From Candidatus Peribacteria bacterium RIFCSPHIGHO2_01_FULL_55_13 (GTDB taxonomy: Bacteria; Patescibacteriota; Gracilibacteria; Peribacterales; Peribacteraceae), in assembly GCA_001788925.1 (NCBI GenBank), contig MFXS01000001.1, positions 2,842-48,506 on the forward strand: 45,665 bases of DNA. The letters run 5' to 3'. The first letter of the stretch is position 1, and each line of letters opens with the position of its first letter. The notes below the pieces were generated by a model that ran no database searches, had not been told where the DNA came from, and saw nothing but the letters and a program-made list of their open reading frames with translations. The translations under genes and the position numbers were made by a program. Positions 4,702-42,138 of this stretch are shown in pieces.

Positions 4702-4739
4702 TCTTGCTTTGCGCCGCGGGTCGGGCAACATACAGCCCT

Positions 4740-5885: not shown

Positions 5886-5913
5886 CAGCGTCATGCTTGG
5901 CGAGGTAATGCTC

Positions 5914-5945
5914 TACCACGGCATTCGCGAACGCCGTGGTATAGT
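5914..5945 (+). promoter_or_regulatory. Near-perfect palindrome fused to a -10 element before hisH
   Basis: Arms TACCACGGC (5914-5922) and GCCGTGGTA (5933-5941) flank TTCGCGAA, itself a palindrome; only one A/C mismatch breaks the 28-bp symmetry. The right end runs into TATAGT (5940-5945), which ends 6 nt before the hisH ATG. No T-run follows, so it is not a simple terminator. It looks like an operator overlapping a promoter, or a hairpin between amidotransferase and hisH. Confidence 0.55.
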
Positions 5946-5951
5946 CGCCGC

Positions 5952-6569
5952 ATGATCGTCATCGTCGATTACGGCTTGGGGAACCTGTTCTCCGTGCAAA
6001 AAGCATTTGAAATGCTCGGCGCGGAAGTAAAGGTTTCCGGTGCGGCGGAGGACATCTGTGCCGCAGACCGGATCGTGCTTCCCGGCGTCGGTGCCTTCGG
6101 AGATGGAATGGATTTCCTCCGTGAAAAAGGATTGGATAGTGCGCTGACAGAGGAAGTGATGGGAAAGAAGAAACCCTTCCTGGGGATATGCCTGGGGCTC
6201 CAGTTTCTCGCAGAGACCGGTGAGGAACATGGAGAACATACGGGCCTCGGATGGATCAAAGGCCGCATCCGGAAACTCGACGTGGAAAAGCAGGGCCTCA
6301 AGATCCCCCATATTGGATGGAATGACCTGACAATGGTACGCAAAAGCCCCCTCTTCGCCGGCATCAACCCCGACGCGGATTTCTATTTCGTCCACAGTTA
6401 CCAGCTGGATTGCGGCGACCCGGCCGATCTCGTCGCCACCGCCACCTACGGGGAAACCATCACGGCCGCCATCCAGCACGGGAATATCTTCGCCACGCAG
6501 TTCCATCCGGAAAAGAGTCAGGATAACGGGCTCAAACTCCTCGAGAATTTTATCCGCTGGAAACCCTGA
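5952..6569 (+). CDS. HisH-like glutamine amidotransferase subunit (HisH2/WbpH type)
   Basis: 205 residues, class I glutaminase. The nucleophile Cys80 is in 'LGICLGLQ', the triad His185 and Glu187 are in 'QFHPEKS', and 'PGVGAFGDGM' is near residue 44. All catalytic residues are present, so it should hydrolyse glutamine to ammonia. Canonical HisH works in histidine synthesis, but no other his gene is in the window. Its place between a sugar amidotransferase and a non-canonical HisF indicates the surface-sugar paralogue. It ends 2 bp before hisF. Confidence 0.9.
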   Translation: MIVIVDYGLGNLFSVQKAFEMLGAEVKVSGAAEDICAADRIVLPGVGAFGDGMDFLREKGLDSALTEEVMGKKKPFLGICLGLQFLAETGEEHGEHTGLGWIKGRIRKLDVEKQGLKIPHIGWNDLTMVRKSPLFAGINPDADFYFVHSYQLDCGDPADLVATATYGETITAAIQHGNIFATQFHPEKSQDNGLKLLENFIRWKP

Positions 6570-6571
6570 TC

Positions 6572-7330
6572 ATGCTGAAAGTCCGCCTCATCCCCACGAT
6601 CCTCCTGAAAGACGGCCGCATGATAAAAACACGGCAGTTTGGAGAGTACAGAGACGTGGGCAACCCCCGCACCGTCGCCAAAGTCTACGACGCCCAACGC
6701 GCCGATGAGCTGATTTTTCTGGATATCACGGCAACCACGGAGAACCGGCACCTCCTCTTCGACATCATCAGTGCCGTCGCCGAGGAATGTTTCATGCCGC
6801 TCACGGTGGGCGGCGGTATCCGCACAGTGGAGCAGGCACGGGAGATGTTAACGCATGGCGCGGACAAAGTGGCGATCAATACAGCCGCCGTGGAGCGTCC
6901 CGCGTTCATCACGGAGTTTTCTAAGAAATTTGGTGCGTCAACCGTTGTCGTGTCGATTGATTACAAGAAAAACAGAGAGGGCAAGAACGAAGTCTTCACG
7001 CACCGCGGTACGAAAGCTACGGGACTCGATCCGGTGGCATGGGCGAAAGAGGCTGAGCGGCTCGGCGCCGGGGAAATTCTCCTCACCTGTGTGGACCGCG
7101 AAGGAATGATGACGGGGTATGATCTCGAGATGTTGAAGCAAGTAACCTCCGCGGTCTCCATTCCCGTGATCGCCTCCGGTGGCGTAGGGACGATCCAGGA
7201 TCTTGTGGACGGGATCCTCATTGGGGGCGCTTCCGCCGTGGGAGCCGCAAGTATCTTCCATTTCACCGATCAGAGCATTTTCAAGGCGCATTCGCACATG
7301 AAGCAGAAGGGGCTTTCGGTGCGAAAGTAA
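6572..7330 (+). CDS. HisF-like barrel subunit lacking the first catalytic Asp
   Basis: 252 residues, (beta/alpha)8 barrel of the HisA/HisF family: 'RLIPTILLKDGRMIK', 'FLDITATTENR', 'LTVGGGIRT', 'VVSIDYKK', 'IASGGVGTIQDL', 'GAASIFHF'. In true HisF residue 11 is Asp in 'P-C-L-D-V-K-D-G'; here that position is Leu11. The second catalytic Asp (in 'SIDYKK') remains. Loss of Asp11 argues against imidazole glycerol phosphate synthesis and supports a role as an ammonia conduit for the amidotransferase, as in WbpG/HisH2/HisF2 systems. It sits 2 bp after hisH. Confidence 0.88.
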   Translation: MLKVRLIPTILLKDGRMIKTRQFGEYRDVGNPRTVAKVYDAQRADELIFLDITATTENRHLLFDIISAVAEECFMPLTVGGGIRTVEQAREMLTHGADKVAINTAAVERPAFITEFSKKFGASTVVVSIDYKKNREGKNEVFTHRGTKATGLDPVAWAKEAERLGAGEILLTCVDREGMMTGYDLEMLKQVTSAVSIPVIASGGVGTIQDLVDGILIGGASAVGAASIFHFTDQSIFKAHSHMKQKGLSVRK

Positions 7331-7360: not shown

Positions 7361-7488
7361 TCGGCTGTACCCAACGTCGCAGGTTTCTTGTCGTAGTTTT
7401 CCTACGAGCAGAGCAAAAAGGGGCATCTTGCCTCGGTCAGCGCTCTGCTGCGATAGGGAAACCTATGCGACAACGTTGGGTACGCCGA
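7361..7488. repeat. Long imperfect palindrome (about 128 bp) in the hisF-GT intergenic gap
   Basis: The left arm TCGGC-T-GTACCCAACG...TCGCA..GGTTTC pairs with GAAACCTATGCGACAACGTTGGGTACGCCGA read in reverse, with small insertions. An inner pair GCAGAGC/GCTCTGC extends the stem. The 200-bp gap (7331-7530) has no convincing gene: ORFs through it change frame against the arms. It resembles a palindromic extragenic repeat unit or a structured RNA at the edge of the AT-rich island. Confidence 0.6.
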
Positions 7489-7530
7489 GCAGGGTGCCCT
7501 TTCTTGGGTGTTCTGCTCTCCCCCGACCCA

Positions 7531-9117
7531 ATGAGCAGCCCGCCATCATACCATCGGCTAGTGCACGTCGATTGGAGTGGTGGAGGGATTCTAAGAATCT
7601 TAACAATTATGTTTTTAATTCTTCTCTGTCTGATTTCGTTACTTTGTCTCTATCTCGAACTTCGCATTAGTATTCTACACCCTTCAAATGATGTCTATAT
7701 TTTTCAAACAGTGGCGAGAGGCATTTTGAATGGGCTTATTCCCTATCAAGATCTACTTGAAACAAAACCTCCTGGTATTTTTTTACTGAATGCAATGTCG
7801 CTCTTTCTCTTTGAAGATCGAACTTTATTGTCGGTTTTGAATATCATTTTCAGCATTGTTTTCGTCATGATTTCGCTTATCACTAGTCTTTACTATTCTC
7901 GTGAACTCCCGTTCTGGCAATCCATGAATGTGTTAAGTGGCGGGCTGCTCGTTGGAATGATTACGGCTATTTGGCATGCAACTCGTGGTGGAATGCCAGA
8001 TTTTTACGCAACAGTTTTGTGCAGCCTTTACGCATTGTCGCTGACCGTACCCGTCTCGTGGAAAGTCAGATTTCCATTAGGAAGTATTTGTATGTTTGGC
8101 GTCGTGTTCCTACGCGAACCACTGGTCCCAGTTTTCCTAGCAACGGCGCTATTACTTACCCCACTCAACTGGAAAGCACTGATTAGAAATGTGGCTCTTC
8201 CTGGGGTCGTAGGGTCGACCATCTGGGCTGCAGTCATGTGGTTTTTGGGATACCTCGGTCCCTATATTTATATTTATTTACCAACTGTGCTCATACGGAG
8301 TGACAGTGATCCACTTACTAGGTGGGGCTCGGCGTTCGTAGGCATGGTTGCCAGTCTTTGGCACATTTCACCATTTTTCGTTCCAGCTATCGGCGGAATG
8401 ATAGCATTCGTCCTTTTACCCCAGACTAAGCAGAATTGGAAACAGTCGGTTGGTTTCTTGTTGTATTTTATTGTCGCTTTATTTTTCACAATGATGGCTG
8501 TGCATCCGCTGGATGACTCAGGTGGATATCACGCATTTGCCATACCCTTCTACAGCGCTATCTCAATTCTTTGGCTGCGTAAATTTAGAATCGCGTTAAT
8601 ACAAAGTCAGCTTTGGGGTTCTGCTATTTCCTATGGGATAACTGTATTGCTGATGCTCACGGTTTTAACCTACCCGCTACTACATTACACTGAGCTGGCA
8701 GAGAGTGGACGAATCAACAAGGATATTTCAACGCAATGGCGAATCGCTCAGCAAATTGATGCAATTCTTGATGACTGTGGTCAAGACAGATATCTGCACC
8801 TTGGACCGATAGATCAATTTTTTACTGGACTCACACGACACTCTCCTTATGGTCCTGGCTTTTTTTTGGGTGAAAATTTAACGAGAAAGGACATTATCGG
8901 ACGCGGTCTTGTGGAAAACATCTATCGAACAAATATTGCCTTAGTGTGGAAGACCGGCATTGTGATAGAGAATGGTGCGGCGCCATATATTCTTGATTCC
9001 ACTACAGAACTGCAACGGAATTTCCAAATCGAACCGTGGTCGTGTGTGCGGCACGACTTCACTAATGATCTATATGTTCTGCTTTTTCGTAAGACTCCTC
9101 TCCTCCGGACCCAATGA
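7531..9117 (+). CDS. GT-C-type membrane glycosyltransferase-like protein, copy 1
   Basis: 528 residues, polytopic. The first membrane segment (about 26-46) is followed by 'HPSNDVYIFQTVARGILNGLIPYQDL..TKPPG', the first-loop pattern of PMT/ArnT-like GT-C enzymes, which move sugar from a polyprenyl-phosphate donor; the Asp after 'SN' is the likely catalytic one. Many further helices lead to a soluble tail of about 120 residues with 'LHLGPIDQFFTGLTRHSPYGPGFFLG'. I start at 7531 because this gives the same length and N-terminus as copy 2. The stop overlaps the ATG of copy 2 by 4 bp (ATGA). Base composition is clearly AT-richer than the flanking sugar genes, suggesting transfer. Acceptor and donor are unknown. 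Confidence 0.75.
   Translation: MSSPPSYHRLVHVDWSGGGILRILTIMFLILLCLISLLCLYLELRISILHPSNDVYIFQTVARGILNGLIPYQDLLETKPPGIFLLNAMSLFLFEDRTLLSVLNIIFSIVFVMISLITSLYYSRELPFWQSMNVLSGGLLVGMITAIWHATRGGMPDFYATVLCSLYALSLTVPVSWKVRFPLGSICMFGVVFLREPLVPVFLATALLLTPLNWKALIRNVALPGVVGSTIWAAVMWFLGYLGPYIYIYLPTVLIRSDSDPLTRWGSAFVGMVASLWHISPFFVPAIGGMIAFVLLPQTKQNWKQSVGFLLYFIVALFFTMMAVHPLDDSGGYHAFAIPFYSAISILWLRKFRIALIQSQLWGSAISYGITVLLMLTVLTYPLLHYTELAESGRINKDISTQWRIAQQIDAILDDCGQDRYLHLGPIDQFFTGLTRHSPYGPGFFLGENLTRKDIIGRGLVENIYRTNIALVWKTGIVIENGAAPYILDSTTELQRNFQIEPWSCVRHDFTNDLYVLLFRKTPLLRTQ
7587..7693 (+). repeat. Direct repeat unit A (5' part of GT-C copy 1)
   Basis: 107-bp tract matching 9170-9276 at all positions but one (C/T at 7630). 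It codes for the first membrane segment. The flanks back to the shared ATG are similar but carry several changes. Confidence 0.85.
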
Positions 9118-10700
9118 GCAGATTGCCATCATACCATCGGCTAATGCGCACTGATGGGAGTGGTGGAGAGATTCTAAGAATCTTAACAATTATGTTTTTA
9201 ATTCTTCTCTGTTTGATTTCGTTACTTTGTCTCTATCTCGAACTTCGCATTAGTATTCTACACCCTTCAAATGATGCCTACATTTTACAAGCGGTTGGAC
9301 GCGGAATTTTAAATGGCCTCATGCCATATCAGGAAATATTCGATCCCAAGCCTCCGGGTATTTTCCTGCTTAATACAATTTCGCTCTTTCTTTTTGGAGA
9401 TCGTACTTTAATGACTATTTTGATTTATGCCTTAAGCATTGTATTCGTCGTGATTGCATTGATAGCTAGTTGGCACCACGCCCATCGGCTCCCTTTTTGG
9501 CAGTTCATTTTCATTTTAAGTGGTGGACTACTTGTGGGAATGATTTTGGCTATCTGGCACGCAAAACGTGCGTATTGGCCAGACTTTCATGCAACAATTT
9601 TTTGCTTGTTTTATGCCTTATCGCTGGTCATCCCTATGCCACAGAAAACTAGAATTTTCTTGGGGGGCATCTGCATTTTTTTAGTCGCGTTCTTGCGAGA
9701 ACCTCTAATATTAGTATTTCTCTCCATTGGACTGCTTTTTACAGCACCAAGTTGGCAATCATTTACTACAACTTTAATTTTACCAGGAAGCATAGGATTG
9801 GTTCTGTGGATTGCGGTGATGTGGCTTCTTGGATATCTCGGTCCGTATCTTGATATTTATTTACCAACCATAATGATACGCCGCGGTAGTGAGCAGTTTA
9901 TTGTGTGGGGTCTTGCATTAGAAGAGATGATTCTAAGCCTTTGGTATATTTCACCATTTTTCGTTCCTGCTATTGGTGGAATGACAACGGTCGTGCTCTT
10001 ACATTCTCATAAGCCGAAGATCAGCCGAACCTGGAAGCTGCTGATGGGACACTGGCTTCGTTTTTTCATCGCATTATTAATGACAATGATTGCAGTATAT
10101 CCATTTGATATTGGACCGGCATACACTGGCTTTGCCATTCCATTCTACAGCGCAATCTCGTTTCTCTGGCTTCGAGAATTGAGGATCGCAATACTGCAAA
10201 AAAGACTTTGGGTTATTCAGATTTCTTATGGAATAGTTGGTGCGTTGGCCCTCACGGTAGTAACTTATCCTCTGTTACATCAAACTGAATTAAAAGAAAT
10301 TAATCGCACTAATGAAACTTTACCCGTGCAAGAAAAAATCGCTATGGAACTCGACGCGATTCTTGATGAGTGCGGTCAAGAAAGGTACATGTACTTTGGT
10401 CCGATGGATCAGTTTTTCACGGGACTTACGCGGCATTCTCCATATGGACCTGCATTCTTCCTTGGTGTTAATTTAATAAGAAAGGACTTTCATGGTCGCG
10501 GTATTTTGGAAAATGCACGTCGCACGAATATAGCTTTGGTATGGAAAAATGGTATTGTAATAGAGAAAGATGCAGAGCCCTACATCCTAGATGCCACCGC
10601 AGAACTTAGACAGAATTTCCAAATTAAACCGTGGTCATGCATGCGGCACGACTTTACTGATGATTTGTATGTGCTGCTATTTCGTAAGATTCCTATCTGA
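9114..10700 (+). CDS. GT-C-type membrane glycosyltransferase-like protein, copy 2
   Basis: 528 residues, exactly the length of copy 1 and similar along its whole length, roughly 60% identical by eye. It keeps 'HPSNDAYILQAVGRGILNGLMPYQEIFDPKPPG' and the tail 'YFGPMDQFFTGLTRHSPYGPAFFLG'. The first part of the gene is nearly identical in DNA to copy 1: 106 of 107 bases from 9170 to 9276 match 7587-7693. Divergence is much higher afterwards. Tandem duplication followed by divergence, with local gene conversion or constraint at the 5' end, is the simplest reading. Confidence 0.75.
   Translation: MSRLPSYHRLMRTDGSGGEILRILTIMFLILLCLISLLCLYLELRISILHPSNDAYILQAVGRGILNGLMPYQEIFDPKPPGIFLLNTISLFLFGDRTLMTILIYALSIVFVVIALIASWHHAHRLPFWQFIFILSGGLLVGMILAIWHAKRAYWPDFHATIFCLFYALSLVIPMPQKTRIFLGGICIFLVAFLREPLILVFLSIGLLFTAPSWQSFTTTLILPGSIGLVLWIAVMWLLGYLGPYLDIYLPTIMIRRGSEQFIVWGLALEEMILSLWYISPFFVPAIGGMTTVVLLHSHKPKISRTWKLLMGHWLRFFIALLMTMIAVYPFDIGPAYTGFAIPFYSAISFLWLRELRIAILQKRLWVIQISYGIVGALALTVVTYPLLHQTELKEINRTNETLPVQEKIAMELDAILDECGQERYMYFGPMDQFFTGLTRHSPYGPAFFLGVNLIRKDFHGRGILENARRTNIALVWKNGIVIEKDAEPYILDATAELRQNFQIKPWSCMRHDFTDDLYVLLFRKIPI
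9170..9276 (+). repeat. Direct repeat unit B (5' part of GT-C copy 2)
   Basis: Partner of 7587-7693, offset by exactly 1583 bp, the distance between the two start codons. Recombination between the units would delete or duplicate one gene. Confidence 0.85.
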
Positions 10701-11414: not shown

Positions 11415-12728
<1,314 letters not shown>

Positions 12729-12729
12729 A

Positions 12730-13794
12730 ATGTCCTTCCTTTTGCCAGAAAATCGAGCCTACATCATCGCCGAGGCGGGGGTGAATCATGATGGCAAGAT
12801 TGCCAAGGCCAGGAAACTCATTGATATCGCTGCTGCCGCCGGTGCCGATGCCGTAAAGTTTCAGATCTTTACGACCGACGAGATCATTTCAAAAAATGCT
12901 CCTCTCGCGGAGTACCAGAAACGCGCCGGGGAACAGTCGCAGTATGCGATGGTGAAGCGCCTGGAGCTTCCCTACGAAGCGTTCCGTGAGCTGAAAATCT
13001 ACGCCGAAGGCAAAGGTCTCGACTTCATCGTCACACCATTCGATGCCGCGTCGGCGGCATTTCTCGCGAGCCTGGGCGTCAAAGCCTTGAAGATCCCGTC
13101 CGGGGAGGTTACCAATATTCCTTTTCTGGAGAACGTCGCCGCACTGAAGATCTTCACGATCATCTCCACGGGAATGTCGACTCTTGAGGAAATTGCGGAT
13201 GCCGTTGCTCCTTTTGAAACTGCAAAGACGCCTTACGCACTTCTCCATTGCGTAAGTTCCTACCCGGCACCCATAGAGCAGATCAACCTGCGGGCAATGA
13301 AGACGCTGGAGGAGGCGTTCCACGTTCCTGTGGGATATTCGGATCACACAAAAGGGATTGATGTCGCCGTGACTGCTGCGAAGCTCGGCGCACGGATCAT
13401 CGAAAAGCATTTCACTCTGAATAAACATGATCCCGGACCGGACCATGCAGCTTCGCTGGAGCCGGATGAGCTCAGGGAAATGATCAGAATCATGAAGGAT
13501 AAGAATGCGCTGCAGAATGCAGGTCTTGCGCAAGAAGCGCTCGGAACAGGCGAGAAGAAATGTCAGCCCTGCGAGGAAAACGTGCGTCTGGTCGCACGAC
13601 GGAGCGTGGTGATGGCTCGCGATGCCGCCGCGGGGACGGTGTTGACGGACGATATGCTTGCAATCAAAAGACCTGGCACCGGGATCGCACCGAAAAGACA
13701 TGGTGATGTTGTTGGCAAAACACTGACAAAGGATCTTGCGGCCGATACGCCGGTCACCGCAGATGTCTTACGCCCTCCTCTGAAGATCACGTGA
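12730..13794 (+). CDS. N-acetylneuraminate/legionaminate synthase, NeuB2
   Basis: 354 residues: NeuB barrel (about 1-275) and SAF domain (about 290-350, 'SVVMARDAAAGTVLTDDMLAIKRPGTG'). All expected motifs are present: 'YIIAEAGVNHDG', 'AVKFQIF', 'ALKIPSGEVTN', 'IISTGMST', 'LHCVSSYPAP', 'GYSDHTKG', 'IIEKHFTLNKHDPGPDH'. It joins PEP to an N-acylated mannosamine-like sugar. It resembles the NnaB/LegI type that makes di-N-acetyl-legionaminate. The ATG is 1 bp after the aminotransferase stop. Its tail overlaps the convergent epimerase gene by 8 bp. Confidence 0.9.
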   Translation: MSFLLPENRAYIIAEAGVNHDGKIAKARKLIDIAAAAGADAVKFQIFTTDEIISKNAPLAEYQKRAGEQSQYAMVKRLELPYEAFRELKIYAEGKGLDFIVTPFDAASAAFLASLGVKALKIPSGEVTNIPFLENVAALKIFTIISTGMSTLEEIADAVAPFETAKTPYALLHCVSSYPAPIEQINLRAMKTLEEAFHVPVGYSDHTKGIDVAVTAAKLGARIIEKHFTLNKHDPGPDHAASLEPDELREMIRIMKDKNALQNAGLAQEALGTGEKKCQPCEENVRLVARRSVVMARDAAAGTVLTDDMLAIKRPGTGIAPKRHGDVVGKTLTKDLAADTPVTADVLRPPLKIT

Positions 13795-14722
13795 GCCGCT
13801 CAAGAATCTTGTCTTCTACCGTGAGATTCAAAGGACATTCCCGCAGCGTCTTCGGATCATATGTCGCATACGTCTGCGCGAATCCTTCTTGAAAAGTGTA
13901 GTGCGGCTTCCAATGGAGTTCGTCCTTGATGAGCGATGTTTGTAACCGACAGGGATGACCCCCGAACGGGAAATAATCGCGGGCATCGTATCCTGCATCA
14001 GTTGCACCGACGGGGAGCCCTGTGTCGCTGGCCCCGCAAATCGCTGCGAGTCTTTGCACGTAATCCTTGAGGGAGACTTGCTCGTCTCCGGCAACGTTAT
14101 AGATGCGTGAACCATCGGCTACATGATCGAGAACAGTCACAAATGCCGACGCGAGATCCTCGATATGGAGAAACTGCACGATCGCCTCTCCGTTGCCCGG
14201 GATGAGCACCGGCCGCCCCCGCAGCGCGCGCTTCCAGATGAAGGTCTCGCGGTCGATGTGGTTTCCGGGGCCGTAGAGGTATGGCGGACGGAGGATTGTG
14301 AGCGGCGGTCCGGTTTGGGAGAGCAGAAAATCATCTGCTTCCGATTTACGCACGCCGTACTCTCCCCAGACCGGCGCACTTCCCGTCGGCGCGGTTTCAT
14401 CAGGGACACAATCAAGATCCGCATAGACCGCAACCGTGCTGAGATGGATCCACCTCTTCGTCCTTGTGGCGCAGGACCGCCATGCAATGTCCGCCTGCGA
14501 CGCGTTGTAGCATGAGAGATCGATGACGGCATCGAATGTTCCCGCTGATGCGACGGCAGTCTCAACGGCATCCGCATCATTGCGATCGGCAATGAGCTGC
14601 CGGGTACCCGGAATGGACCGCGTGCCGCGGTTCAGTACTATGACGGAATCCTTCCGATCGAGCAGCAGCTTGATGAGTGCCGGACCGACGAAGCGCGAGC
14701 CGCCAATGACGAGGATCTGCAT
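13787..14722 (-). CDS. NAD-dependent sugar epimerase/dehydratase (CSP41-like)
   Basis: 311 residues. The N-terminal nucleotide motif is the unusual 'LVIGGSRFVGPAL' (GGSxFxG), as in CSP41b-like and some atypical SDRs. 'VIDLSCYNASQ', 'HLSTVAVY', a 'YGVRKSEADDF' Tyr-Lys pair and 'RPPYLYGPGNHIDRE' follow. It probably epimerises or reduces a nucleotide sugar; the exact reaction cannot be told. Its ATG overlaps the TGA of the PHP/ATP-grasp gene (TGATG), showing translational coupling in a three-gene minus-strand operon with NeuC-like 1. Confidence 0.8.
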   Translation of the reverse strand: MQILVIGGSRFVGPALIKLLLDRKDSVIVLNRGTRSIPGTRQLIADRNDADAVETAVASAGTFDAVIDLSCYNASQADIAWRSCATRTKRWIHLSTVAVYADLDCVPDETAPTGSAPVWGEYGVRKSEADDFLLSQTGPPLTILRPPYLYGPGNHIDRETFIWKRALRGRPVLIPGNGEAIVQFLHIEDLASAFVTVLDHVADGSRIYNVAGDEQVSLKDYVQRLAAICGASDTGLPVGATDAGYDARDYFPFGGHPCRLQTSLIKDELHWKPHYTFQEGFAQTYATYDPKTLRECPLNLTVEDKILERLT

Positions 14723-16389
14723 CAGAAGATATTCAGAATGGAGTGATGTCCCTCCAGATGTCCCTTTGAGAGCGTCTTTACGTCTTCCAAAGGCACGATC
14801 ACCTCATTCCAATAGCGCAACATATACGCGTCGCGGAAAGACAGGCGTCGCAGCGGGCGGTTAAAGAAGATGTTTTGCAGAAGTGCGTTCACGACGTTGA
14901 ATCCGAGAGCGCTTGCCGCACCGGTCGTCCCCGAAAACCGGCAATTGATCTCAAAAATTTTCCACATATCGCCGTCTTTGCGGAGTTGGAAGTTACAAGG
15001 ACCGGTGATCTTGAGTACCGATCCCACTTGCTCAATGAAGTGTTCAAGCTCGGGATGATGCAGAGAAGCAGCCTTGTACGTATCGCCACTGCGCAGCCAT
15101 CGCCTCATGGGAATGACGCCGTAACACTTCCCTTCCCAGAAGAACGCCCCGCACGTGTACTCCTCGTCTTCCTCGGAAAGATATTCCTGCACGATCAGAT
15201 CAGAACGTGACGCAAGGGCTGCGTTGAGCTCCTTCTTGTCATGCACCACTTGAAATCCGATAGAGCGCGCGCCGACGCGGGGCTTCACCGCGAGTGGGAA
15301 ACCCGTATCCTTCACGAGGGCATCAACATCATCGGCCAACGCCGAACGTACGTGCGGAAAACCGTGCGTCTTAAGAAATTCGGTCGTCTTCCATTTGTCA
15401 TCGGCGATAGTGATTGCCTCCGGAGAACTCACGATGATGCGTGTACCGGTTTTCTGTTCGAATTCCTCTCTGTGCCGTGCAAGCACCTCAAGCTCAACAT
15501 CGGTACCGACAAGCAGGAGTTCGACGTTCTCTGCTTTGCAGATCTTCTGCAGCGCCGGGATATACTTCGCATCCTGTGCACCGGGAACGGTGTATGCCGC
15601 ATCACTGCGATACAGCCCTGCGGCGAGCGGCTGCATGTCTACCGCAATGATCCGTGTCTTTACCTTGGAAAGCTTCAACGCCTTGAGGATGCTCTGGCCT
15701 ACGCCCGCGCCCGCGCCCGTAACGAGGACGGTGACGGGTTTTGCCAACGCGAATGCCGCTTCCCCGAGCTCGCTTGCGTGATCGTGCATATCCGTCCCGA
15801 ACGAAAAATGACGGCTGTTGCCTTGCTCCATTTCATGGGTCACGAGTTCCTGAATGGACTGAAGCGCCTGCTTGGCGTTGAACTCGAATTTGATCCCGTT
15901 TTTGACACACAACCGGTAGATCTCCTCAACGTATTCCATCGGCGGATTAAGCTTAAAAAAGCGGTTACACATGCTGAAGGGATGGCCGAGAATGTCGACC
16001 TCCGGACGCTGTGTGATCATTTTGGTGAGTTCATATTCCTTCTCGAGCAGTTCTTCTTTGGTCATCGATTTGATGTTCGTGAAATGATGGACGCTCCCGA
16101 TCACCACTTCCGCCGCGTCGAGGATCTCCTTTGTCGTGTTGAGCGTTCCGTCTTCCACAATCTTCACTTCGCAGCCGATGCGGACGGCGAAGTGCGGATA
16201 CTGCGCGCGCAGTTCTTTGATTTCCTTGCAGTAGGCAGGAAACCAGTCGGTCTTCGTATTTACATGATCCGAGATCGTGAGATCCAGCTGATCGTGGAGG
16301 TGGTTATATTCCAGAATTTCCCCGATGGAATGCTTCCCATCGCTGTAGGTGGAATGCAGATGATGATCTTCGAAAAGAGTGGTGCGCAT
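14722..16389 (-). CDS. PHP-domain/ATP-grasp fusion protein
   Basis: 555 residues, two domains. The PHP hydrolase domain (about 1-215) has a full metal-ligand set: His10-x-His12 and Asp17 in 'DHHLHSTYSDG', His42 in 'SDHVN', Glu74, His101/His102, His136 in 'GHPF', and Asp200-x-His202. A carbamoyl-phosphate-synthase-like ATP-grasp follows (about 218-555): pre-domain 'VLVTGAGAGVGQSILKAL', ATP-binding 'PLAVKPRVGARSIGF', 'IVQEYLSEEDEEYTCG', and Mg-binding 'FEINCRFSGTTGA'. PHP domains are phosphatases or phosphoesterases; ATP-grasp enzymes ligate a carboxylate to an amine or thiol. Together they may trim and then acylate or amidate a sugar acid (inference). The start is 16389; an upstream extension has no homology. 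Confidence 0.82.
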   Translation of the reverse strand: MRTTLFEDHHLHSTYSDGKHSIGEILEYNHLHDQLDLTISDHVNTKTDWFPAYCKEIKELRAQYPHFAVRIGCEVKIVEDGTLNTTKEILDAAEVVIGSVHHFTNIKSMTKEELLEKEYELTKMITQRPEVDILGHPFSMCNRFFKLNPPMEYVEEIYRLCVKNGIKFEFNAKQALQSIQELVTHEMEQGNSRHFSFGTDMHDHASELGEAAFALAKPVTVLVTGAGAGVGQSILKALKLSKVKTRIIAVDMQPLAAGLYRSDAAYTVPGAQDAKYIPALQKICKAENVELLLVGTDVELEVLARHREEFEQKTGTRIIVSSPEAITIADDKWKTTEFLKTHGFPHVRSALADDVDALVKDTGFPLAVKPRVGARSIGFQVVHDKKELNAALASRSDLIVQEYLSEEDEEYTCGAFFWEGKCYGVIPMRRWLRSGDTYKAASLHHPELEHFIEQVGSVLKITGPCNFQLRKDGDMWKIFEINCRFSGTTGAASALGFNVVNALLQNIFFNRPLRRLSFRDAYMLRYWNEVIVPLEDVKTLSKGHLEGHHSILNIF

Positions 16390-16390
16390 A

Positions 16391-17512
16391 TTAAAGAGTC
16401 CGGAGGAATTGCTCGATGGTCTTGGTGATGCGCTCGGCGACGGCCCCTCCTTTATAAGGAGAAGAACGCCGACCAAGGGCTCTATGGAACGCGGACGAAC
16501 TCGCGCGGCGAACAGCGTTCGCGATTGCAACGGCATCGTAGTTCGTGAAGATCACATTAGGGCCGTGCTCGCGGCCGTCCTGGCGCGCGCCGATATTCAC
16601 AAAAGGCACGCGGAGGTATCCCGCCTCCACGAGCCCCGAACTGGTGTTGCCGACAAGTGCTGCACTCTGGAGCATCAACCCGAGGTAATCTTTGCGCTCG
16701 ATATGCCGGTGAAGATGGTAGTGCGGCTTCCTTTGGAATCGTTCAATGGCATGGATGAATGCTTCGCTTCCCGCATCGGAATTGGGATAGAGGATGATTT
16801 TTTCGTCCTGCGGATCGATCTTCTTGAGTGCACCGAGCACGGCATCGATTTGCCTGGTAATGGGCGTATCTTCCAGTGCCGAGGGATGCATGACGACAAG
16901 GTGCCAACGCTTTTTTGGATCGAGACGATATCGGGCCGCGAGATCTTTCCTCTTCGGGAGAATACGAGGATGCAGTCCGTCCAGACCCGCGGACCCCACA
17001 ACATTCGCCCATCGCCGGTCCGCACCGAGGCTGAGAACATTGGATTTACTCTGCGCCGTCTGCACCAGGTGAACGCTCGAGAACAATGTAATGGACTTGC
17101 GGAGATATTCGTCGACCGTTGGGCCGGTGGTGTCGCCCCCGGAAACATGGATGACGGGAATGCCGCGGTGCATCGCGGCGACAGCACCGGCAAACGCCTC
17201 GTCGCGGTCTGCGACGACGAGCACGGCATCCACCAAATGCATGCGCAGGTACTCTCCGATGCCGTCGATTTCTTTCGCGAGTGCAGTAAGGGGATCGTCA
17301 TGTTCCCCGACAGAAACAACATGATCCACATGAACCGCTTTTCTCACGTGCTCAATGGTGTACCCGAAACGGCGTTGCGTATGCATCCCGGTGACGAGAA
17401 CCTGCGTGTGGAATGCGCGGCTTTTTTTGAGGCGGAGAATCGTGGATTCAATGAGCCCCCACTCTGCCCGGGTGCCGGTAATAAAGAGCACCGTCTTCTT
17501 ATGTGCTGTCAT
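16391..17512 (-). CDS. NeuC-like UDP-GlcNAc 2-epimerase family protein 1, active-site variant
   Basis: 373 residues, GT-B-like 2-epimerase fold. 'ITGTRAEWGL' starts the protein and 'GNTSSGLVEAGYLRVPFVNIGARQDGR' is the UDP-binding part. The family normally carries G-D-R-x-E, H-x-E-G-G and R-H-(A/S)-x-T-K. Here these read ADRDE (101-105), HVSGG (Ser124 for Glu) and RKSIT (Lys139 for His). So UDP-sugar binding is probably kept but hydrolysing epimerase chemistry is doubtful. It may be a repurposed enzyme or act on a different sugar nucleotide. First gene of the minus-strand operon, 1 bp before the PHP/ATP-grasp start. TACAGT ends 6 nt before its ATG. Confidence 0.8.
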   Translation of the reverse strand: MTAHKKTVLFITGTRAEWGLIESTILRLKKSRAFHTQVLVTGMHTQRRFGYTIEHVRKAVHVDHVVSVGEHDDPLTALAKEIDGIGEYLRMHLVDAVLVVADRDEAFAGAVAAMHRGIPVIHVSGGDTTGPTVDEYLRKSITLFSSVHLVQTAQSKSNVLSLGADRRWANVVGSAGLDGLHPRILPKRKDLAARYRLDPKKRWHLVVMHPSALEDTPITRQIDAVLGALKKIDPQDEKIILYPNSDAGSEAFIHAIERFQRKPHYHLHRHIERKDYLGLMLQSAALVGNTSSGLVEAGYLRVPFVNIGARQDGREHGPNVIFTNYDAVAIANAVRRASSSAFHRALGRRSSPYKGGAVAERITKTIEQFLRTL

Positions 17513-17534: not shown

Positions 17535-18662
17535 ATGTCCGGAAACCCGATTCCCCTCTCTTCTCCCGATATCGGAGAAGACGACATTCGCGCAGTCACA
17601 GACGTCTTAAAGTCCGGTCGCCTGTCTCTAGGGCCGCAATTGCAGGCATTTGAAGCGGCGATGGCGGCTTATACCGGAGCGAAGTACGCGGTGGCCGTGA
17701 GTAGCGGAACGAGCGCGCTGCACCTGTGCATCCGGGCGCTTGGAATCGGCGAAGGCGATGAAGTGATCACCACTCCTTTCAGTTTTATTGCATCCGCCAA
17801 CTGCATGCTCTTTGAAAAGGCGGTCCCCCGCTTTGTCGATATCGAGCCTGCAACATTCTGCATCGATCCGGCTAAAATCGAGCAAGCCATCACCAAAAAA
17901 ACAAAAGCGATCCTCGCTGTGGATGTCTTCGGGTACCTCGCCGACTGGGAGACCCTGGGAAGCATAGCAAAAAAACACGGAATCGCGCTGATCGAGGACA
18001 GCTGCGAATCGCTCGGGTCAGCGCGGGGGGGACGGATGGCAGGCACATTCGGCGACTGCGGCACATTCGCGTTCTACCCAAACAAGCAGATGACCACCGG
18101 CGAAGGCGGGATGATCGTGACAAATCGTGAGGACATCGCCGTGAGCGCGCGCAGGGAGCGAAACCAGGGGCGTGACCCGGAGAATGCCTGGTTGGAGCAC
18201 AAGTCGCTCGGATTCAACTACCGTTTGAGTGACATCCAGTGCGCACTCGGCATCAGCCAACTGAAACGCATGCCGGAGTTCATCCACAAGCGCAGGCAAA
18301 TCGCAGAATGGTACAAGGAAGAATTGGAACCCTTGAACGAACACATCAGGCCGGCGCCTGTGCAGAATGGAGTGGATATCAGCTGGTTTGTATACGTCGC
18401 TCATTTGACTGCCCGGCACGGACAGAAGGCCCGCGATGCTCTCCTCGCGCATCTCCGGGCACACGGTATCGGCTGCAACAATTACTTCCCGCCTCTGCAT
18501 CTGCAGCCGCTCTACCGCACGCAGGGGCATGGCGAAGGAGATTTCCCTGTCACGGAGAAGATTGCGGAGCGCACAGTCGCCTTGCCGTTTTCTTCGCGTC
18601 TTTCGCGCGCAGAGGTTGCGAGTGTGTGTAGAATTGTGAAAGATGGCATTCTTCGCCTCTAA
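17535..18662 (+). CDS. DegT/DnrJ/EryC1-family aminotransferase (LegC/PseC-like)
   Basis: 375 residues, sugar aminotransferase of the AHBA_syn family. 'AVSSGTSALHLCIRALG', 'EVITTPFSFIASANC', Asp155 in 'IEDSCESLG', and Lys184 in 'YPNKQMTTGEGG' (PLP Schiff base). 'NYRLSDIQCALGISQLKR' and 'YFPPLHLQPLYR' are substrate-side motifs. It would convert the 4-keto sugar nucleotide from the neighbouring dehydratase into the 4-amino sugar. The dehydratase starts 10 bp downstream, matching the LegB-LegC pair of legionaminic acid synthesis. A PseC role is less likely given the dehydratase type. Confidence 0.9.
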   Translation: MSGNPIPLSSPDIGEDDIRAVTDVLKSGRLSLGPQLQAFEAAMAAYTGAKYAVAVSSGTSALHLCIRALGIGEGDEVITTPFSFIASANCMLFEKAVPRFVDIEPATFCIDPAKIEQAITKKTKAILAVDVFGYLADWETLGSIAKKHGIALIEDSCESLGSARGGRMAGTFGDCGTFAFYPNKQMTTGEGGMIVTNREDIAVSARRERNQGRDPENAWLEHKSLGFNYRLSDIQCALGISQLKRMPEFIHKRRQIAEWYKEELEPLNEHIRPAPVQNGVDISWFVYVAHLTARHGQKARDALLAHLRAHGIGCNNYFPPLHLQPLYRTQGHGEGDFPVTEKIAERTVALPFSSRLSRAEVASVCRIVKDGILRL

Positions 18663-18672
18663 ACCCGTTCCT

Positions 18673-19728
18673 ATGACTTCCCTGTTCCGTGACAAGACGA
18701 TCCTCGTCACAGGTGCCACCGGCTCGATTGGTTCGGAGATCGTGCGCCAGCTGCTCACGCAGAATCCCAAGACCGTCCGCATCTTCTCCAGAGATGAGCA
18801 CAAGCAGTTCCTTATGCGTCAGAAAATCGGCGACATTGATGCCATCCGCTACCTTCTCGGCGACGTGCGTGATTTTCCGAGACTGCTGCGCGCGATGGAA
18901 GGGGTGGATTTCGTCTTCCACTGCGCCGCGTATAAGCATGTCCCGCTCTGCGAATACAATTCCTTTGAAGCAGTGAAGACCAATGTCATCGGTACCCAGA
19001 ATGTCATCGAGGCAGCGGAGCAGCAGGGCGTGAAGCGCGTGCTTTTCATCAGCACGGACAAGGCGGCCAGCCCGAGTAACGTCATGGGCGCCACAAAACT
19101 GCTCGCGGAACGCCTGATGACTTCGGCGATGTATTCACGCGGTCAGCATCCCATCATTTTCAGTAGTGTCCGCTTTGGAAATGTCCTTGGTTCGCGCGGA
19201 TCCATGATCCCCACATTTTGCTCGCAGATCAAAGACGGCATCCCCGTGACCATCACCGATCCGGAGATGACGCGCTTTATCATGTCGATCCCCGAAGCCG
19301 TCAGTCTCACGTTCTCCGCCATGGAACAGATGCAGGGAGGGGAACTCTTCATTTTGAAAATGCCGGCATTCCGCCTGAGTGACTTTGTCGCTGTCCTTAT
19401 TGAGGAAGTGGCTCCGCTGTATGGGAAAAAACCGGCCTCTGTAACGACCAAATGTATCGGCATTCGCCCGGGGGAAAAAATGCAGGAACTGCTCATGACC
19501 GCGGAAGAGGCACAGCACGCAATGGAAACGGAAACGATGTTCATCGTCCGTTCATCTCTTGACCCCTTCAAAGAGGATCCATCCATCACTCCGCGTATTA
19601 TCCCAAAAGCCTACAGTTCTGCTGAGCTCACTCCGATGGATCGCGAGAGCATGCGCAAGATCATCCGGGAATACTTCGCTGCTACTCCCCTTCCTCTCGT
19701 CATGACAAATGCGGAAGAGAGGGAATAA
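18673..19728 (+). CDS. UDP/GDP-GlcNAc 4,6-dehydratase (LegB/CapD-like)
   Basis: 351 residues, extended SDR of the polysaccharide biosynthesis/CapD group. 'ILVTGATGSIGSEI' (NAD), 'GDVRDFPRL', 'HCAAYKHVPLCEYN', 'FISTDKAASPSNVMGATK' and 'RFGNVLGSRGSMIP'. The active-site block has Thr128-Asp129-Lys130 and Met138-x3-Lys142. The Met in place of Tyr is the PglF/LegB style that keeps the C5 configuration, rather than the PseB style that inverts it, so the product is likely the legionaminic precursor. Start: an ATG at 18643 overlaps the aminotransferase; 18673 begins just ahead of the fold and 10 bp after its stop. Confidence 0.88.
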   Translation: MTSLFRDKTILVTGATGSIGSEIVRQLLTQNPKTVRIFSRDEHKQFLMRQKIGDIDAIRYLLGDVRDFPRLLRAMEGVDFVFHCAAYKHVPLCEYNSFEAVKTNVIGTQNVIEAAEQQGVKRVLFISTDKAASPSNVMGATKLLAERLMTSAMYSRGQHPIIFSSVRFGNVLGSRGSMIPTFCSQIKDGIPVTITDPEMTRFIMSIPEAVSLTFSAMEQMQGGELFILKMPAFRLSDFVAVLIEEVAPLYGKKPASVTTKCIGIRPGEKMQELLMTAEEAQHAMETETMFIVRSSLDPFKEDPSITPRIIPKAYSSAELTPMDRESMRKIIREYFAATPLPLVMTNAEERE

Positions 19729-19752: not shown

Positions 19753-21198
19753 ATGTCCGCTCCTCTGAACATCATTCTGAAATCATTTGATGGTCCGCGC
19801 ATCCGACCGATGTTGAAGGCTGCCTTCGCCGGAAGAAACATCGGAACGTGCATCTCCATCGTCAACCGGAATGAACCTGCGCCGGACATTCAGGCTGCAC
19901 GACATGTATGGATGCCGGCAAACCCTTTGCGGGCAGGGCAATATCCAAATGTCGACTGGAATACCATTGCACCGCTCGATGCAGGGCTGATCGAAAGTAT
20001 GGCGCACTGCGAAACGATGTTTTTAGCCATGATCGAGCGCTATGCGCTGAACGACGATATTCCGTATGCGGAGCGCAAGCGTCAGTACTTGGCGCACTTG
20101 CGCTATTGGGACCACTTGCTGCGTACGGAGAAGATCGGGCTGTATCTCCTCAATCATTCACCGCATCAGTGTTTTGATCTGGTGATCTACGATCTCTGCA
20201 AGCTGCGTGGTATCCCCACATATCTCCTGGACCGTTGCTATAACGTCGATGGCGTATTTCTTGTAAAAGATTTTGAGAAATCCGCCGAACAACTGCTGCC
20301 GGCGATGGAAAAACTGCGGGTAGAGTATGCGGATCAGAACAAACAGATCCCTCTGTCTCCTTCCTATGAAGAATTTTATACCGTGCAAACGACACAAATG
20401 ATTCCGGCATGGTCCCCAGGCAAACGAGACGAACATCTGGCAAAAAGAAACTTTTTCGCCAAATGGATGGAGAAATCCTGGGAGCTCCTGCACCGCAACC
20501 CCGTTAAATTTTTGAAGGCAGTCGCTTCTCCGGACGTCTGGACACGTAAATTCAAACAGCACCGTACAGCACGGTTCTACGATGAACACACCGTGGAACC
20601 CGATCTTTCCGTGCCCTACATTTACATGCCGCTCAGCAAACAACCGGAAGATGGCGTACTGCCACGGGGAGGCGCATTCGCCAATCAGGAACTCATGGTC
20701 CAGTTGGTCGCCGCTCATGTACCACCGGGCGTATCCATCTACATCAAGGAACACCCTTCTCAGGGGGAATTGTTCCGGAGTGAAGCGTTTTACCGTTCCA
20801 TACGGGGTTTGCCCTGTGTCCGATTCGTCCCGCGCAATGCTGACTCGCTTCGGCTGATCCATAACGCAAAAGCGATAGCGACCATCACGGGGACAGCCGG
20901 CTTCGAGGCGATTTTCCGTGGCAAGCCGGTGTTGATGTTCGGGCATCGCTTCTGCCAGTACGCCCCGGGAACCTCTATGATCCGCAGTGCAGAGGATTGT
21001 CGTAGTGCCATGGAACGGATTTTCGAAAAAGGCGAGACTCCGTCCCTGCGTGAGGTACGACTCTTCATGAAAGCGGTGGAAGATACGACCGTTCCGTATG
21101 AGGGAGGACAGTTACGACCGGACCAAACTTCGCGCGAAGAGCGCGCACGAGTCATGGGAGAAATGGTCAGCCGCATCCTCGCTCCACTCTTCCAGTAA
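19753..21198 (+). CDS. Capsule-type KpsC/KpsS-like glycosyltransferase 1
   Basis: 481 residues. N-terminal half: 'YDLCKLRGIPTYLL' and a two-helix region. C-terminal half: 'YIYMPLSKQPE', 'YIKEHPSQGE' and 'ITGTAGFEAIFRGKPVLMFGHRF', the pattern of Kps capsule synthesis proteins (KpsC/KpsS) that add Kdo-type sugars, related to GT-B folds. Given the locus, it may transfer a nonulosonic acid from CMP-sugar (inference). No signal peptide or membrane segment, so cytosolic or peripheral. A paralogue lies on the minus strand at 23394-24884. It is followed at 3 bp by a GT4 gene, so they form an operon. Confidence 0.7.
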   Translation: MSAPLNIILKSFDGPRIRPMLKAAFAGRNIGTCISIVNRNEPAPDIQAARHVWMPANPLRAGQYPNVDWNTIAPLDAGLIESMAHCETMFLAMIERYALNDDIPYAERKRQYLAHLRYWDHLLRTEKIGLYLLNHSPHQCFDLVIYDLCKLRGIPTYLLDRCYNVDGVFLVKDFEKSAEQLLPAMEKLRVEYADQNKQIPLSPSYEEFYTVQTTQMIPAWSPGKRDEHLAKRNFFAKWMEKSWELLHRNPVKFLKAVASPDVWTRKFKQHRTARFYDEHTVEPDLSVPYIYMPLSKQPEDGVLPRGGAFANQELMVQLVAAHVPPGVSIYIKEHPSQGELFRSEAFYRSIRGLPCVRFVPRNADSLRLIHNAKAIATITGTAGFEAIFRGKPVLMFGHRFCQYAPGTSMIRSAEDCRSAMERIFEKGETPSLREVRLFMKAVEDTTVPYEGGQLRPDQTSREERARVMGEMVSRILAPLFQ

Positions 21199-23393: not shown

Positions 23394-24884
23394 CTATTTG
23401 ATATTCATTGCATCCAATTCCTGCAAAATCGCATCGGTGCACTTCCGCACATGCTCCTCTTCCGACAAATGCGTCACTTTGAGTTTCCACGGATCCAGAA
23501 CGGCATGGATGCATGTTTCCTCTATTGCCCTGAGGAAGAGCCTTGATTCAACCAAGGACGGAGTTGCATGATGCATGAAAATTTCCCGCGCGGCCTTCGC
23601 GCAATCTTCCGCTGTGCGAACGCGAAAAACTCCACGTGCATATTGGTAAAACCGGTAACCGAAGAGTAGCACCGGCTTTCCGCGGAATATCGCCTCGAAT
23701 CCCGCCGATCCCGTCACCGTCGCGACAGCCTTGCAGTGCTCGCGCAGGAGAAATGTATCGACATGGCGCGCGATCAGACGGACTTTTTTCATCGCCAGTA
23801 GTTGCGCATAATATCCGGGACTTCGTGTCAGCCATCCTCCGGCACGCGGGTGCTCTTTCACATAGATAAGCACGTCCTCCGGAAGATGCGCATTGAGCAA
23901 ATCAGCGACCAACAACTGATTCGCGTACGTTCCACCCATAGGCACCGTGGATGCTTCGGGCTGGTAGTGCAACGGAAGATACACGAACGGACGCGTGAAA
24001 TCCGGGTTGATGGCATGAGCGTCATAATAGGCATTCGTCCGGCGAACCGCCATCCACCGCTCGCATGTCTTGAGCGCACGACGCAGCCCCGTCGGCGTGC
24101 AGTACGCGACGAGAAACTGGAGAAATAGCAGAGGCTGTGCGGTCAGCATCCGCCGTATGCGTCCCCAATACGTCAATCGTTTGTAGCTCTCAATGGGTGG
24201 CTTCTGGACTGCGGGGGTCGTCAGTGAGGCAAAGCGCTTGTTGAACGATGCGCTGAGTGGGATCTCTTTCCAATCCTTCACGCCTGCGTACTCCCGGAGA
24301 AGCGCTTCGTAGCGCTGCGGAATCTTGGGAGCAGGATCCTCGATAGCGTATTCCGCAAAGGACACATCCCGCATAGTCGTCGTATGAAAATACACCACGG
24401 GAATGCGGCGGAGTTTGCAGAGGTGATAGATGACGATATCCGGAATCTCATGTGGAATCCAAGCGGAAATGTAGAGATTGATACGCTGCCGGATGAGATA
24501 GTCGTTCCAAAACTGGAGATGTCGCAGATACCACTGCTTGCGGACGGCATAGGGAATACTGCGTTTCCACTCAAGACGCATGACCATGTCCATGAAAACC
24601 GTCTCACAACCGCGCATGCGCTCGATGAGCTCTTCATCAAGCGGTGTAACGCGGCTCCAGTCCACCCCCGCATAATCGCATCCGCGCACCTGACTGGAGG
24701 AGAACCACTCCTGACGTTCTTCGGGCACATTCTCAAGTCGCTCCACGGTATCCGAAGAAAGAACCGCGCAAAAATCAAACGGACGCTTGAGGAGCACCTC
24801 TCGGATAGTCTTTTGTGCCACATCACTGGAAAAACGGGCTACGATGGCGCGAATCGGTGTTTGAGAGAAATTGGGAAGCGACAC
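23394..24884 (-). CDS. Capsule-type KpsC/KpsS-like glycosyltransferase 2
   Basis: 496 residues, paralogue of 19753-21198 along its length: 'DWSRVTPLDEELIERMRGCETVFMDMV', 'YHLCKLRRIPVVYF', 'YLPLHYQPEASTVPMGGTYANQ', 'YVKEHPRAGG', 'TVTGSAGFEAIFRGKPVLLFGYRFYQYARG'. Both share the 'GTYANQ/GAFANQ' and 'TGxAGFEAIFRGKPVL' blocks. It likely adds a sugar to the same polymer. The start is GTG at 24884, with GATACT 8 nt upstream. It is divergent from neuB3, whose promoter lies in the 65-bp gap. It converges on no gene; repeat copy 1 lies past its stop. Confidence 0.7.
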   Translation of the reverse strand: MSLPNFSQTPIRAIVARFSSDVAQKTIREVLLKRPFDFCAVLSSDTVERLENVPEERQEWFSSSQVRGCDYAGVDWSRVTPLDEELIERMRGCETVFMDMVMRLEWKRSIPYAVRKQWYLRHLQFWNDYLIRQRINLYISAWIPHEIPDIVIYHLCKLRRIPVVYFHTTTMRDVSFAEYAIEDPAPKIPQRYEALLREYAGVKDWKEIPLSASFNKRFASLTTPAVQKPPIESYKRLTYWGRIRRMLTAQPLLFLQFLVAYCTPTGLRRALKTCERWMAVRRTNAYYDAHAINPDFTRPFVYLPLHYQPEASTVPMGGTYANQLLVADLLNAHLPEDVLIYVKEHPRAGGWLTRSPGYYAQLLAMKKVRLIARHVDTFLLREHCKAVATVTGSAGFEAIFRGKPVLLFGYRFYQYARGVFRVRTAEDCAKAAREIFMHHATPSLVESRLFLRAIEETCIHAVLDPWKLKVTHLSEEEHVRKCTDAILQELDAMNIK

Positions 24885-24913
24885 AGAATGAGTATCAGCC
24901 GGGGATCAAGGGT

Positions 24914-24942
24914 TTCGCAAGTAAGGAGTGCGCGAATATACT
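24914..24942 (+). promoter_or_regulatory. Predicted promoter of neuB3
   Basis: TTCGCA (24914-24919), a 17-bp spacer, then TATACT (24937-24942), ending 7 nt before the ATG at 24950. No Shine-Dalgarno is present between them. This is one of the clearest leaderless-type starts in the window. Confidence 0.6.
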
Positions 24943-24949
24943 CGTAGCG

Positions 24950-42119: not shown

Positions 42120-42138
42120 GATCTGGCACACTCAAGCC

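Follow-up and report, generated by a model that had tools for sequence, protein, structure and literature searches.

A PHP phosphoesterase fused to an ATP-grasp ligase in a surface-sugar gene cluster of a Peribacteria genome, and its proposed role in amino-sugar decoration

A stretch of 45,665 bp (hereafter the window) of contig MFXS01000001.1 from Candidatus Peribacteria bacterium RIFCSPHIGHO2_01_FULL_55_13, whose genome is a 1.17 Mb draft that is 98% complete, carries a gene in which a PHP phosphoesterase and an ATP-grasp ligase are joined in a single protein of 555 residues (P0001). The same in-frame fusion, with conserved sites in both halves, is found in other genomes of the candidate phyla radiation (CPR). 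Elsewhere the ATP-grasp gene usually stands beside a phosphatase of one of three superfamilies, within gene clusters for surface sugars. We hold with moderate confidence that the fused protein acts as a bifunctional enzyme in the synthesis of surface sugars: its ATP-grasp half would ligate a phosphorylated partner to an amino sugar, and the phosphate would be removed by the PHP half.

The fused gene and its relatives in candidate phyla bacteria

The fused gene lies on the minus strand at 14722-16389 and starts with the ATG at 16389. The reading frame extends to 604 codons with an ATG inside the preceding NeuC gene, and similarity to relatives begins at the 16389 start. The PHP domain occupies residues 1-206 (15772-16389, minus strand; Pfam PF02811, ligand conservation and fold matches) and the ATP-grasp ligase domain residues 218-535 (14785-15738, minus strand; NF009402, residue conservation and fold matches). 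PF02811 matches residues 8-172 with 47.5 bits, above the Pfam gathering cut-off of 26.4. The NCBIfam model NF009402 (PRK12767.1-1, "carbamoyl phosphate synthase-like") covers residues 219-535 with 343.6 bits (cut-off 218), and Pfam places PylC-like_N (67.4) and ATPgrasp_Ter (48.0) on residues 222-506. No PHP model passed its own cut-off in an NCBIfam scan of the fused protein, with the HisJ-family histidinol phosphatase model TIGR01856 at 31 bits (cut-off 90.2) and the PolX model at 48 bits (cut-off 426). The ATP-grasp half falls outside CarB (TIGR01369, 29.7 bits against 1027; it is a single ATP-grasp domain, not two halves) and PylC (TIGR03909, 32 bits against 248.3), and no TupA-like ATP-grasp model is among the Pfam matches of the fused protein at E-values up to 0.1. 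A preliminary description of this DNA had proposed a PHP plus ATP-grasp protein of 555 residues at these coordinates. The open reading frame (ORF), its translation, the Pfam and NCBIfam domain searches, an AlphaFold2 model and six fused relatives bear this out, and supply the strand that was left unstated.

Both active sites appear to be intact. Residue conservation was scored in two separate alignments, one of 41 ATP-grasp sequences and one of 28 PHP sequences. All nine PHP metal ligands named in the preliminary description (H10, H12, D17, H42, E74, H101, H136, D200, and H202) are present in the window protein, which therefore carries the predicted trinuclear set whole. Six of them (D17, H42, E74, H101, H136, and H202) never vary and H12 is kept in more than 90% of the sequences, while some relatives have Gln in place of H10 and Asn in place of D200. 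The PHP domain of Thermus PolX also has Gln at the H10-equivalent position in a sequence-profile alignment. In the ATP-grasp half, every sequence keeps K332, K369, and E410, and almost every one keeps Q468, E480, and N482. The putative ATP/Mg set (K332, K369, Q468, E480, N482) is kept in 39-41 of up to 41 sequences, consistent with the earlier call of an intact ATP-grasp, its Lys pair and Q-E-N metal set being conserved.

The full-length AlphaFold2 model, built on the 41-sequence alignment, has a mean predicted local distance difference test score (pLDDT) of 92.1 and a predicted template modelling score (pTM) of 0.90; the PHP half modelled alone reaches a pLDDT of 94.7. Among Protein Data Bank (PDB) structures the ATP-grasp half is closest to 2pn1 (Z 33.8, root-mean-square deviation 2.0), with PylC at Z 27. 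The PHP half matches the PHP domain of PolX and histidinol-phosphate phosphatases (HisK) at Z about 19, and YcdX at Z 17. The model is thus confident and has the expected folds, and at fold level it gives no indication that the residues of either predicted site are misplaced.

Six relatives, 58-73% identical and apparently all from candidate phyla bacteria, carry the same in-frame fusion, which brings the total to seven loci of CPR genomes. Four other assemblies of the window's order have it at 63-73% identity, and a scan of a genome collection added one locus from Harrisonbacteria (67%) and one from Yanofskybacteria (59%). Both halves are in one frame in all six (L024-L029), of which L028 is cut by a contig end. 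In the ATP-grasp tree the fused proteins form one clade (support 100/99). One of the six, L027 (JAIPIN010000001.1), is titled Kiritimatiellales; this label is probably a naming or binning error for a genome of the window's own CPR family. In the Harrisonbacteria locus L026 (8330-11668), two ATP-grasp genes stand back to back; a HAD phosphatase gene follows one of them, and the other carries the PHP fusion.

The PHP/ATP-grasp fusion is real and not an assembly artefact. The two halves are separate genes in most other phyla, which could point to an assembly error or a chance joining of two unrelated genes; yet six further loci in different assemblies share the in-frame fusion at 58-73% identity, and this explanation is refuted in practice. 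The frameshift or assembly error that the preliminary description had named as its own test is thereby ruled out, since the fusion is conserved across different assemblies. We found no fused or paired homolog in viral contigs and phages, and no paper in the open-access literature that describes PHP and ATP-grasp as a fusion or a pair within glycan clusters. As far as found, the fusion is a new architecture made of parts of known kinds, and the pairing of the NF009402 ATP-grasp family with exchangeable phosphatases appears to be unrecorded.

Split pairs, exchanged phosphatases and sugar-cluster context

Outside the fused clade, PHP and ATP-grasp occur as adjoining, mostly overlapping genes in about 40 loci, many of them from Sinorhizobium. 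The PHP-then-ATP-grasp order, usually with an overlap, is shared by other Rhizobiaceae, Chloroflexota, cyanobacteria, Calditrichota, Bipolaricaulota, Acidobacteriota, Sulfurimonas, Betaproteobacteria, Bacillota, and archaea. On Sinorhizobium pSymB the halves are neighboring genes with a four-base overlap and 37% overall identity, followed by a short-chain dehydrogenase/reductase (SDR). The scan patterns were derived from the ATP-grasp part alone. The tblastn confirmation was queried with the whole fused protein and took the best 80 loci, so PHP-bearing loci are perhaps somewhat favored, and phyla outside the window's group were sampled via loci already found. The pair suggested for a search in other genomes thus recurs, as a fusion in seven loci and as adjacent genes in about 40. 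In S. meliloti pSymB (L022, 11255-17608) the PHP, ATP-grasp, and SDR genes directly follow the sulphate-activation genes cysD-nodQ-cysQ and may have a connection with sulphated surface sugars.

Loci without PHP usually have an unrelated phosphatase, calcineurin-like or HAD, beside the same ATP-grasp. A calcineurin-like gene directly precedes the ATP-grasp in L064, L069, L092, and L104, directly follows it in L086 and L090, and lies one gene further on, past an SDR, in L061, L063, L065, L066, L082, and L107. The domain forms the C-terminus of the next protein in L052, and a HAD hydrolase directly follows the ATP-grasp in L089, L108, L109, and L112, and the second ATP-grasp in L026. The protein of L052 (2772-4223), a myxococcal locus, adjoins the ATP-grasp and has no Pfam match in its first 230 or so residues ahead of the C-terminal metallophosphatase domain. 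Plasmids give the same picture: a metallophosphoesterase precedes the ATP-grasp on plasmid Smac51, a HAD-IA hydrolase follows it on a Priestia plasmid, a HAD lies a few genes on in a Segatella plasmid, and a HAD-like ORF, read by eye, follows it on an unannotated Rhizobium etli plasmid.

Using profiles built from these proteins, we found a phosphatase in reach of 50 of the 58 dereplicated ATP-grasp loci. None of 689 genes more than three positions away matched the phosphatase profiles, a background that is partly circular because the neighbors behind the calcineurin-like and HAD profiles had first been picked out by eye. Pfam agrees with the phosphatase calls on the representatives tested. Of 380 CPR genomes, five exceed the NF009402 cut-off, and all five have a phosphatase (two PHP fusions, two calcineurin-like, one HAD). 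Across the above-cut-off loci in 34 genomes a phosphatase is found at 27 of 30, the exceptions being L056 (at a contig end), L071, and L085. A pairing that is fused, adjacent, or replaced in 50/58 loci against 0/689 in the background argues that the phosphatase is a functional partner of the ATP-grasp. Mapped onto the ATP-grasp tree, the five phosphatase labels imply 14 or more changes; for the calcineurin label by itself the minimum is six. In the closest sister group to the fused clade (support 99/94), a calcineurin-like gene stands where PHP would be; the ATP-grasp has therefore been kept while its phosphatase was exchanged.

The clusters around the ATP-grasp are of more than one kind. A DegT sugar aminotransferase lies within eight genes in 38 of the 45 lineages, a bacterial sugar transferase lies near in 19/45, and NeuB is within eight genes in 17/45; the NeuB and sugar-transferase neighborhoods overlap in one lineage only. 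The CPR fusions usually stand behind a NeuC-family epimerase in nonulosonate clusters. The claim of the preliminary description that the system is nonulosonate-specific does not hold, with NeuB near in only 17 lineages and DegT in 38. Since both NeuB clusters and sugar-transferase clusters are represented, the module serves nonulosonate pathways and pathways started on a lipid carrier. An SDR is within three genes in 33/45 lineages and directly next in 27/45, with none near in L024 and L027. The epimerase, which had been thought to take part in a three-gene step, is thus a variable partner.

Two other kinds of proteins were observed near ATP-grasp genes. WbqC-like proteins recur in L058 (7086-7778, PF08889), L090 (11665-12363), and L092 (12708-13394), the last two recognized by eye. 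PIG-L deacetylases occur in L049, L104, and L092.

Proposed function and alternatives

In the mechanism that we propose, the ATP-grasp half would use ATP to activate a carboxylate as an acyl phosphate, presumably for amide formation. The acyl phosphate would then be joined to an amine, most likely the amino group installed by DegT on a nucleotide-linked sugar. We favor this acceptor because an amino sugar is the shared element of both pathway kinds. One of the ligation partners may bear a phosphate monoester (phosphoserine, a phospho-hydroxy acid, and a phospho-amine are examples), whose phosphate the PHP half would strip by metal-dependent hydrolysis, probably as the later step. In most organisms the two activities would reside in separate, coupled genes, with a PHP, calcineurin-like, or HAD phosphatase, and in CPR they would be fused. 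HAD, calcineurin-like, and PHP enzymes share the hydrolysis of phosphomonoesters, so the exchanged step is most likely the removal of phosphate from a small molecule. The preliminary description had envisaged ligation and phosphate removal as a joint step; the pairing with phosphatases supports this core idea, but not its framing as a nonulosonate-specific step of three genes.

Several points weigh against the proposal. L071 and L085 lack a recognizable phosphatase, and none was found in a sugar cluster on an E. coli plasmid whose ATP-grasp is related; the phosphate step is therefore not shared by the whole of the wider family. The E. coli cluster was found on four plasmids only and could not be linked to any known O-antigen structure. 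In Nitrosotalea a weak metallophosphatase match lies two genes off, with an opposite-strand gene between, and was not counted. Bicarbonate can also serve as an ATP-grasp substrate, and ATP-grasp enzymes can be kinases. The nearest characterized parallel, Cj1438 of Campylobacter jejuni, belongs to a TupA-like family, is fused to a glycosyltransferase, and forms its amide on the carboxylate of a uronic acid, not on an amino sugar.

Some of these points would suit a different division of labor, in which the ATP-grasp ligates an unphosphorylated acid or amino acid and the phosphatase acts on another intermediate of the pathway, such as a sugar phosphate or a nucleotide by-product, with fusion serving to balance expression or to channel intermediates. 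Not all ATP-grasp loci have a phosphatase, an SDR separates the two genes in L061, L063, L065, L066, L082, and L107, and no phosphatase is named in the C. difficile type B flagellin locus, where an ATP-grasp protein is required for the peptidylamido sugar (PMC5207246). Whatever its superfamily, however, the phosphatase mostly adjoins the ATP-grasp, and in one lineage the two are fused, while the other cluster genes vary more; we consider this division of labor rather unlikely, though it deserves to be kept in view. It is a good deal less probable that the PHP half hydrolyses the phosphoanhydride of a nucleoside diphosphate (NDP)-sugar, or proofreads the products of the ATP-grasp, instead of cleaving a phosphate monoester. 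Calcineurin-like enzymes and NeuC-type steps can hydrolyse NDP-sugars, and the window operon begins with a NeuC-family enzyme. NeuC already takes off the nucleotide, however, and the position of PHP is filled in L089, L108, L109, Priestia, and R. etli by HAD enzymes, which are chiefly phosphomonoesterases. Furthermore, about 19 of the 45 clusters feed a sugar-phosphate transferase that needs an intact NDP-sugar.

A PHP-type phosphatase that is catalytically dead and structural, or that serves nucleotide housekeeping unrelated to the sugar, could account for the changes of H10 to Gln and D200 to Asn in some relatives, and for the Sinorhizobium neighbors, which are sulphate-activation genes with the CysQ nucleotidase. 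We regard it as very improbable. The other ligands are invariant, the Gln is the one seen in Thermus PolX, and the fact that enzymes of two other phosphatase superfamilies take its place speaks for a catalytic role.

Beyond the window protein, and more tentatively, our proposal may describe a widespread and so far unrecognized way in which bacteria and archaea decorate amino sugars: the ligase would attach an acyl or amino block that carries a phosphate, and a dedicated phosphatase, drawn again and again from three unrelated superfamilies and fused to the ligase only in CPR, would then unmask it. "Carbamoyl phosphate synthase-like" enzymes occur without an assigned reaction in many capsule, flagellin, and nonulosonate clusters, and such a route, if true, would close a gap in many clusters for nonulosonates, flagellin, and exopolysaccharides. 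The fusion and the repeated exchange of PHP, calcineurin-like, and HAD enzymes predict that the ligation leaves a phosphate monoester in place, to be cleaved off afterwards. This could be tested in vitro with one fused protein, and genetically in Sinorhizobium meliloti, where the halves are split on pSymB.

Gene neighborhood and closest known systems

In the window, the fused gene is preceded by a NeuC-like gene (16391-17512, minus strand; P0003, 373 aa from the likely ATG) that ends at 16391, 1 bp upstream of the start at 16389. The stop codon of the fused gene overlaps, in TGATG, the start codon of an extended SDR of the NAD-dependent epimerase/dehydratase family (13787-14722, minus strand; PF01370, E 1.3e-25). 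The gene coupling reported earlier is therefore correct on both sides. The NeuC-like protein scores 311.3 bits with TIGR03568 (cut-off 235.9), which makes it a NeuC-family hydrolysing UDP-sugar 2-epimerase, and its best PDB match is 5xvs. It keeps DRxE, VDxxLR, and HP, and has GGE changed to GGD and RH to RK/RN. These changes recur in its relatives beside other fusions, so that its earlier portrayal as a NeuC-like protein with lost hallmark residues was overstated. The SDR was considered as an ortholog of the Sinorhizobium SDR and rejected at only 24% identity.

Convergent to these genes is a NeuB-family synthase (12574-13794, plus strand; TIGR03569, 410 bits against 399.65), whose true start is probably near 12730, and next to it lies a class III aminotransferase resembling glutamate-1-semialdehyde aminomutase (11415-12728, plus strand; PF00202, E 3.3e-39). 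The latter enzyme also occurs in L024, L025, and L085 (cluster 37 of the neighborhood maps). On the other side lie a PseC/LegC-like DegT sugar aminotransferase (17535-18662, plus strand; PF01041, E 1.3e-119; PseC model 337 bits, below 423.5), the likely source of the amino sugar, and a PseB-like UDP-sugar 4,6-dehydratase (18643-19728, plus strand; PF02719, E 1.5e-103; PseB model 323.9 bits, below 407.75).

The window has four NeuB-family synthases (1573-2565, 12574-13794, 24815-26041, 42091-43011), of which only that at 12574-13794 passes the NeuB_NnaB cut-off, and two NeuC-like genes (16391, 26043). Their number suggests several different nonulosonates. At 4704-7330 a WbuX/WbpG-type N-acetyl sugar amidotransferase (TIGR03573, 359.9 bits against 203.2) is followed by HisH- and HisF-like genes, a set known for acetamidino sugars. 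Two tandem and very similar predicted membrane proteins (7465-9117, 550 aa; 9114-10700, 528 aa) overlap by 4 bp in a patch of low GC content (43%). The genes at 19753-21198 (plus strand) and 23394-24884 (minus strand) encode related proteins of one sequence cluster, the first matching Capsule_synth.

Taken by halves, the fused protein has familiar relatives. The ATP-grasp half is a member of the NF009402 family by score and of the 2pn1 fold, and 2pn1 has no fused PHP. It resembles PylC (3-methylornithine--L-lysine ligase) in fold and in the Pfam domain PylC-like_N, but stays below the TIGR03909 cut-off. The PHP half is similarly like HisK and the PHP domain of PolX in fold and in metal-ligand pattern, but below the HisJ and PolX cut-offs. 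The split pairs of Sinorhizobium and other phyla share the two domains, their order, and 37% identity, and are usually encoded by overlapping genes. They differ from the fusion in being separate genes, in lying in sulphate-activation or exopolysaccharide clusters, and in that the first PHP His is often Gln.

Two ATP-grasp proteins of flagellin modification are needed for full decoration, CDR20291_0245 of the C. difficile type B flagellin glycan (PMC5207246) and SfmE of S. oneidensis, which lies beside a NeuB-like gene (PMC3765264). Both are described as ATP-grasp_4 (PF13535) without PHP, and are compared with the window protein by description only. The C. difficile type A flagellin cluster was rejected as a precedent, as CD0243 is a predicted methyltransferase and not an ATP-grasp.

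The best parallel for the mechanism comes from the C. jejuni HS:2 capsule, where the C-terminal ATP-grasp of Cj1438 attaches either serinol-phosphate or ethanolamine-phosphate to glucuronate, and the phosphate is then taken off by Cj1435 (PMC11800379). It has in common with our proposal the ATP-grasp ligation of a phosphorylated partner, a separate phosphatase activity, and a glycan pathway. Because the fused protein neither matches a TupA-like model nor reaches the CarB cut-off, we suggest that it works like the Cj1438 system, and not that it is a member of it.

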